Below, piece after piece: positions 36,742-37,452 of a stretch of 37,452 nt of DNA. The notes under the pieces are model-generated. The model searched no databases, was not told the DNA's origin, and saw nothing but the letters and a program-made list of their open reading frames with translations. How positions within the stretch are numbered: the first letter of the stretch is position 1; every line of letters begins with the position of its first letter. Origin of the DNA: Treponema sp. (GTDB lineage: Bacteria > Spirochaetota > Spirochaetia > Treponematales > Breznakiellaceae); assembly GCA_031276965.1 (NCBI GenBank), contig JAISMC010000004.1, positions 1-37,452 on the forward strand, in the 5' to 3' direction. The position numbers and the translations under genes were made by a program.

Positions 36742-36963
36742 ATTATATAAGTATACTGTAATACTGGTTTTTCCAGTACCGGTAAAGTGAAGATAGGGAT
36801 TTGTAGTACCGGCTGGGGCCGTACCCCCCCGATCCGGAGCTTGGTTCTACAATTTTTTAAACGGGGGTGAATTTAACCGGGGTATGGACCCATATGCACT
36901 AACTTAGACTTAACAATCCGTTGATTTAACGGTATGCTGTAAAAAATACCGGAGGTTTGTAGT

Positions 36964-37452
36964 ATGCCGTCGATAGCCCAGTTACTGCCGTTGCTCGGAG
37001 AAGATTACGAACGAACATGTATCGAACTCGGGATTATACGGCGGGCGCGTGAAATCAAAACGCCCGCAGATTTAATCTCTAAAGGGGTTAATTCCCCGCC
37101 CTTTAGGGCGTAAGACTGGGGGTTTGGGGGATTTGTTCCCCCATAGACGCAAAAATTTCTAGGAGAAATCTTCAATACCCCGCCATTCATGGCGGGGATG
37201 CTTTATTGATGTTCTGTTTGTTTCATCCGCTCAACGGCGTGTCGCTTATCGCGGTCAGCACGGTCGCGTTCGCCCTGAAAATAGGAGACTTCAGCGATGT
37301 GGCGTTTATGAAAAAGTTCGCCAGGTGCGGCGAATGGTTCAAACAGATAAGCGCGGGCTTATTGCGCGGCGGGTTAATTTCATACCCGAAACCGGCTTAT
37401 CTGGAAGGCCGCCGCGTGCTCGCGGTAGATGCCTCCGATGTGGTTGAAAAGG
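36964..37452 (+). pseudogene. IS4-family-like transposase, 5' part, interrupted at 37075-37205; continues past the window
   Basis: MPSIAQLLPLLGEDYERTCIELGIIRRAREIKTPADL | LMFCLFHPLNGVSLIAVSTVAFALKIGDFSDVAFMKKFARCGEWFKQISAGLLRGG...RRVLAVDASDVVEK. Confidence 0.82.
37075..37205. mobile_element. 131-bp hairpin-rich insertion (candidate non-autonomous element) in the transposase gene
   Basis: TTTA at 37071-37074 and again at 37202-37205; internal dyads at 37097-37110, 37126-37142, 37155-37169, 37178-37197; removal restores the frame. Confidence 0.8.

Follow-up and report, generated by a model that had tools for sequence, protein, structure and literature searches.

Structure of the interrupted locus

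The window analysed here is the whole of contig C80 (37,452 bp), part of a 2.70-Mb draft genome, and it ends within the 5′ part of an IS4-type insertion sequence. The transposase frame is open through ...IKTPADL to 37074, is then interrupted by 131 bp, and picks up at ...MFCLFHPLNG, so that the insert divides the frame just as a preliminary description of this DNA had stated. All features below lie at the right-hand end of the window.

36891..37452, + strand: IS4-type insertion sequence, 5′ part; left end at about CATATGCACTAACTTAG, runs off the contig
36964..37075, + strand: IS4-type transposase gene, first part (MPSIAQ...IKTPADL); homologues 75-90% identical in termite-gut Treponema MAGs
37071..37075, + strand: left target TTTAA, with cleavage tetranucleotide CL = TTAA at 37072-37075; TTAAT in 19 uninterrupted homologues
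37076..37206, + strand: non-autonomous IS200-type element (PATE-like), 131 bp; ends taken from empty sites and copies
37090..37093, + strand: putative left guide GL = AATT, 5′ of the left hairpin; from sequence and from covariation with the target in other insertions
37097..37110, + strand: left-end hairpin CGCCC-TTTA-GGGCG; from fold and base-pair counts
37126..37142, + strand: hairpin GGGGGA-N5-TCCCCC; also found in relatives, as the leader hairpin ahead of tnpA
37155..37169, + strand: hairpin ATTTCT-AGG-AGAAAT, from the 3′ end of a tnpA element; counterparts just past the tnpA stop codon in L171 and L196
37174..37177, + strand: putative right guide GR = AATA, 5′ of the right hairpin; from sequence and right-end guide counts
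37178..37197, + strand: right-end hairpin CCCCGCCAT-TC-ATGGCGGGG; three pairs with compensatory changes
37203..37206, + strand: right cleavage tetranucleotide CR = TTAT, borne by the element; unlike the empty site (TTAA), conserved in other copies
37207..37452, + strand: IS4-type transposase gene, second part (..MFCLFHPLNG..); truncated where the contig ends

The IS4-type gene leaves the contig at 37452, and its 3′ part is absent from the data. A Pfam scan of the 119-aa joined fragment of the interrupted transposase gave no match, and longer homologous ORFs were used instead; these match PF01609 and score 114.4 and 80.2 bits with NCBIfam IS4_1 against a cut-off of 115, which bears out the IS4 label of the preliminary description. 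Close homologues of the gene are found in termite-gut Treponema and Spirochaetaceae MAGs, while in the nearest 59 genomes the best kin reach only 31-33% identity, and searches of viral contigs and of plasmids returned no kin. Most homologous IS4-type copies share upstream sequence from CATATGCACTAA on, and further out they are unrelated. The insert introduces both a stop codon (TAA, 37111-37113) and a frameshift, and this copy of the transposase is therefore broken. In four MAG contigs (L074, L075, L077 and L079) the assembly stops only a few bases from where the insertion lies in the IS4-type gene, perhaps because a mixture of filled and empty copies interrupted the assembly, perhaps by chance alone.

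Empty sites and the exact ends of the element

Uninterrupted copies of the host gene allow the insertion to be placed to the base. We found 19 homologous transposase genes whose sequence extends to or past the insertion site and lacks the insert (three of them stop 3-5 bases beyond it), and TTAAT is present in 19/19 and TTTAAT in 18/19. The empty site thus reads TTTAAT, in codons DL-M-M, whereas the left junction in the window is TTTAA/T and the right junction TTTAT/T (the slash marking the cut). Since the fifth base differs, A against T, the motif on the left represents the original target, and that on the right is part of the element. The insertion point in the IS4-type gene is therefore TTTAA/TGATG, and no target duplication is present, because the right TTTAT belongs to the element and is not a copied target. 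In another copy (L269) a C follows TTTAT, which places the right end of the element directly after this motif. A second, independent junction is given by L058, where only the right part of an element remains; it reads TTTAT/TGATATACTG where other IS4 copies have TTTAA/TGATATACTG upstream of the gene. A second empty site, of the AATA type, is provided by L245, which reads TTTATTG and is an uninterrupted homologue of the filled L201. The latter (position 1433, G120:C347) is a tnpA-bearing relative with guide AATA, inserted after TTTAT at the homologous DL(L/M) codons of another IS4-type transposase.

These junctions refine the boundaries that had been proposed from the window alone. TTTA does occur on both sides, at 37071-37074 and again at 37202-37205, but the true ends, 37076-37206, lie one base away from that register. 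Precise excision of the 131-bp element would restore the transposase frame, with length and frame unchanged as claimed, although the product would read DLMMF and not the DLLMF of the TTTA register. Of the two mechanisms that had been offered, IS200/IS605-style insertion stands, whereas a 4-bp target duplication is ruled out by the empty site TTTAAT. The flanking TTTA copies are what would commend the insert as a MITE of a DDE transposon with a TTTA target duplication; given that the right TTTAT(T) is not a target copy and is conserved at unrelated sites, and that terminal inverted repeats are absent and the hairpins sub-terminal, we regard such an origin as very improbable.

Copies across the family

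The genome from which the window derives holds one full copy of the element and one 31-bp relic of its right half (L003, 1904-1934, G000:C37), the relic lying about 75 bp from a transposase-like ORF. Matches to the element were obtained in 35 of 99 relatives, several of which have full-length copies, and at E ≤ 1e-15 in 64 of 200 genomes of the bacterial family, distributed over 28 of its 57 genera. The flanks of these copies are unrelated while both ends are constant, and the 131-bp sequence recurs at full length in many genomes, at sites unrelated to one another, as its description as a mobile unit called for. One genome (G191) carries three identical copies and a fourth with a 1-nt difference, at four sites, which indicates recent movement within the family; another (G013) carries six copies of one type that are 91-97% identical among themselves. 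The suggestion that the element is active is supported in this sense for the family; in the genome at hand, with its single full copy and relic, the element is no more than a candidate for activity.

Some copies of the same IS4-type element lie within GGGG-N7-CC(CC) hairpin feet resembling those of the 131-bp element family. This was seen in 5 of 17 copies read, and additionally in L293 (L060, L061, L072, L073, L077 and L293), and the IS4 copy of the window is also preceded by GGGGTATGGACC (window 36875-36891). The 131-bp element family and the IS4-type family thus seem to insert into each other.

Hairpins, guides and targets

All four dyads listed in the preliminary description are found inside the insert. 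As a single strand, the insert folds at -33.9 kcal/mol versus -19.3 for shuffled sequences (z -5.0; 0 of 200 shuffles as good). Base-pair counts over 16 copies show 92.8% of cells pairing and 17 cells with two-sided changes, and 0 of 500 shuffles scored as high. The comparison suggests that the hairpins are kept as structures, with much compensatory change in the right hairpin only.

In IS608, the fourth bases of guide and target pair with each other, consistent with both IS608 ends. Guide bases 1 and 2 of IS608 pair with target bases 2 and 1 (A+16 with T-3, A+17 with T-4) (PMC5934647). As judged from sequence, AATT with TTAA on the left and AATA with TTAT on the right would fit all three IS608-type pairings. 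Among other insertions, left guides ending in T go with TTTAA and those ending in A with TTTAT (24/3/4/42, Fisher p 4e-12), in an automated table that includes some chance pattern matches. By eye, the off-diagonal cases are mostly such chance matches, with L180, L194 and L236 as real exceptions; the end of L039, TTTAAT, is another break of the guide rule. At the right end, guide position 1 is A with T in 28 cases, G with C in 3 (TTCATT) and G with T in 1 (p 8e-4), and this sole G-with-T case, L025, reads TTCATT by eye. Related elements have their guides in common by descent; the left target is nonetheless host DNA, and each insertion is for that reason a fresh test of the guide.

The same features bear on whether the unit could be a repeat of the REP/REPIN type whose mobility depends on a domesticated TnpA-REP (RAYT). 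Y1 genes abound in the bacterial family and some of those listed are probably of the RAYT kind, yet the hairpin feet here are AATT and AATA, and the GTAG/GTGG foot, the usual REP guide (PMC6006769), is absent. Moreover, empty sites define the ends of the unit exactly, and the tnpA sharing these two ends falls in NCBIfam IS200. We consider this origin very improbable, if marginally less so than that from a DDE transposon.

Relation to tnpA-bearing elements

Our first profile scan of Y1 and TnpB loci for the ends of the element missed its parents, and it was reading the DNA adjoining the Y1 TnpA gene of the own genome that revealed the left end. This genome has one such gene with an open frame (PF01797; NCBIfam IS200), whose product is homologous to the TnpA of IS608 and ISDra2, with the HUH and tyrosine regions aligning. 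Directly upstream of its ATG lies a left end of the 131-bp element's family, with guide AATA, not AATT; this tnpA element is without a recognisable right end, and a transposase-like ORF comes next. Close relatives of this TnpA occur in 30 of 200 family genomes, and complete tnpA elements measure 536-596 bp, running from TTTAAT or TTTATT to TTTATT. In a side observation, one 2.2-Mb genome (G027) contains at least 60 Y1 transposase genes (PF01797), which looks like a large expansion.

The two halves of the element correspond to the two ends of such elements. Its left 73 nt match the left end and leader hairpin before tnpA in G002 (89%, E 3e-23) and G001 (81%), both of which have the left end and hairpin GGGGGATGTGTTCCCCC just ahead of tnpA, while its right 56 nt align at 75% identity with the 3′ end of a tnpA element of 591 bp. 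Because the left half matches the end that precedes tnpA and the right half the 3′ end of a tnpA element, the 131-bp unit is a tnpA element minus its gene, with the leader hairpin kept; a complete tnpA element of exactly the same sub-type was not recovered among these genomes, the left halves in G001 and G002 running into contig ends inside tnpA. Y1 tnpA elements that share the ends of the insert are candidates for the IS200/IS605 transposase source that had been sought, and together with the copies and empty sites they support the earlier view of a MITE/PATE-like element, non-autonomous and lodged in a host gene that is itself mobile.

Descent from an IS605-type element with TnpB, the interior being a relic of an omega-RNA scaffold, was also considered. 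In its favour, the right half of the element is weakly matched over 58 nt by a single TnpB locus, L115 (E 0.011). PF07282 is, however, present in only 8 of 60 family genomes and absent from the own genome, and both matched segments, the tnpA leader for the left half and the 3′ end of a tnpA-only element for the right, carry tnpA only, which leaves the TnpB route with hardly any likelihood.

We are therefore confident that the 131-bp unit is a non-autonomous IS200-type derivative (Y1 TnpA, no TnpB), PATE-like. An IS200-type parent lost the whole of tnpA while retaining both ends and the tnpA leader hairpin. For its movement, we infer that TnpA made elsewhere acts in trans on the window copy and, with the DNA single-stranded, binds the hairpins of both ends. 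Base pairing of the guides, AATT on the left and AATA on the right, would set the cuts, after the target TTTAA and after the element's right-end TTTAT, respectively, and the excised circle would re-enter single-stranded DNA 3′ of TTTAA without duplicating it. In the window, entry was at TTTAA/TGATG of the IS4-type transposase gene, breaking the gene.

A sub-family carrying CRISPR repeats

The element of the window is without a CRISPR repeat, but in some copies elsewhere the stretch from the left cut to the left hairpin holds a type I-C-like CRISPR repeat of 32 nt. The left tip of this sub-family is the repeat GTTTCAATCCACGCGCTCACATGAAACGCGAC, with variants such as GCGCTCCCATGGAGCGCGAC that have a perfect stem, and it often stands right after a TTTAT/T-like target. 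The shortest versions consist of the repeat, one hairpin and TTTATT. Loci of the sub-family include L286, L287, L296, L298, L308, L309, L291, L292, L302, L052 and L210, among others, in genomes G121, G135, G136, G126, G118, G184 and G025. Sites with a solo repeat number 11 in G121, 20 in G135 and 16 in G025, and singly dispersed repeats occur also in G126, G184 and others. A 31-mer repeat pattern (≤2 mismatches) was found in 17 of 200 genomes, the reversed control giving no matches, and an automatic test placed the foot of the left hairpin directly after the repeat at 29 of 48 distinct dispersed sites. Real CRISPR arrays with related repeats are present in G019 and G136, and cas8c (PF09709) was detected in 5 of 18 genomes tested. 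We take the solo repeat to be probably of type I-C, judging by its likeness to the array repeat of G136, a genome with cas8c.

The capture of a complete type I-C-like repeat and its single dispersal are seen in the sequences themselves. Solo CRISPR repeats in phages are known as RNA anti-CRISPRs (Racrs) (PMC10651486), and our literature search found no description of transposable solo CRISPR repeats. The captured repeats may be Racr-like decoys of Cascade or seeds of arrays; either function is speculation, and we rate the reading that combines capture with such a role as rather unlikely.

Comparison with known systems and implications

PATEs are the palindrome-associated transposable elements of Haloquadratum walsbyi (PMC3119063). 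Like them, the element lacks terminal inverted repeats, has palindromes close to both ends, produces no target duplication and, at 131 bp, is too short to encode a transposase; some PATEs likewise arose from IS605-type elements, by deletion of the core (PMC3119063). With these features it joins the known PATE, or non-autonomous IS200/IS605, kind. It is unlike PATEs in its bacterial (spirochaete) host, its tnpA-only source, the tnpA leader hairpin that it has kept and its target TTTAA. With IS608 and ISDra2 it shares a homologous Y1 TnpA, hairpin ends, guide tetranucleotides 5′ of the hairpins and insertion 3′ of a fixed target that stays on the left; unlike them, it is a 131-bp element without a transposase, targets TTTAA or TTTAT where they use TTAC or TTGAT, and has mostly T, not C or G, as the base after the cut. 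The IS605 stem-loop relics of Borrelia plasmids (PMC2775950) are also transposase-free IS605-type hairpins in a spirochaete host, but those are free-standing or lipoprotein-gene-linked hairpins (PMC2775950), whereas the copies described here are whole two-ended units at unrelated sites.

The element represents an additional PATE family, from uncultured termite-gut spirochaetes, that has well-defined bounds, known empty sites and a parent type bearing tnpA. That guide and target agree over dozens of insertions offers natural evidence of DNA-guided targeting, a mechanism elucidated in vitro with IS608. If confirmed, the CRISPR-repeat sub-family would provide CRISPR repeats in mobile form.
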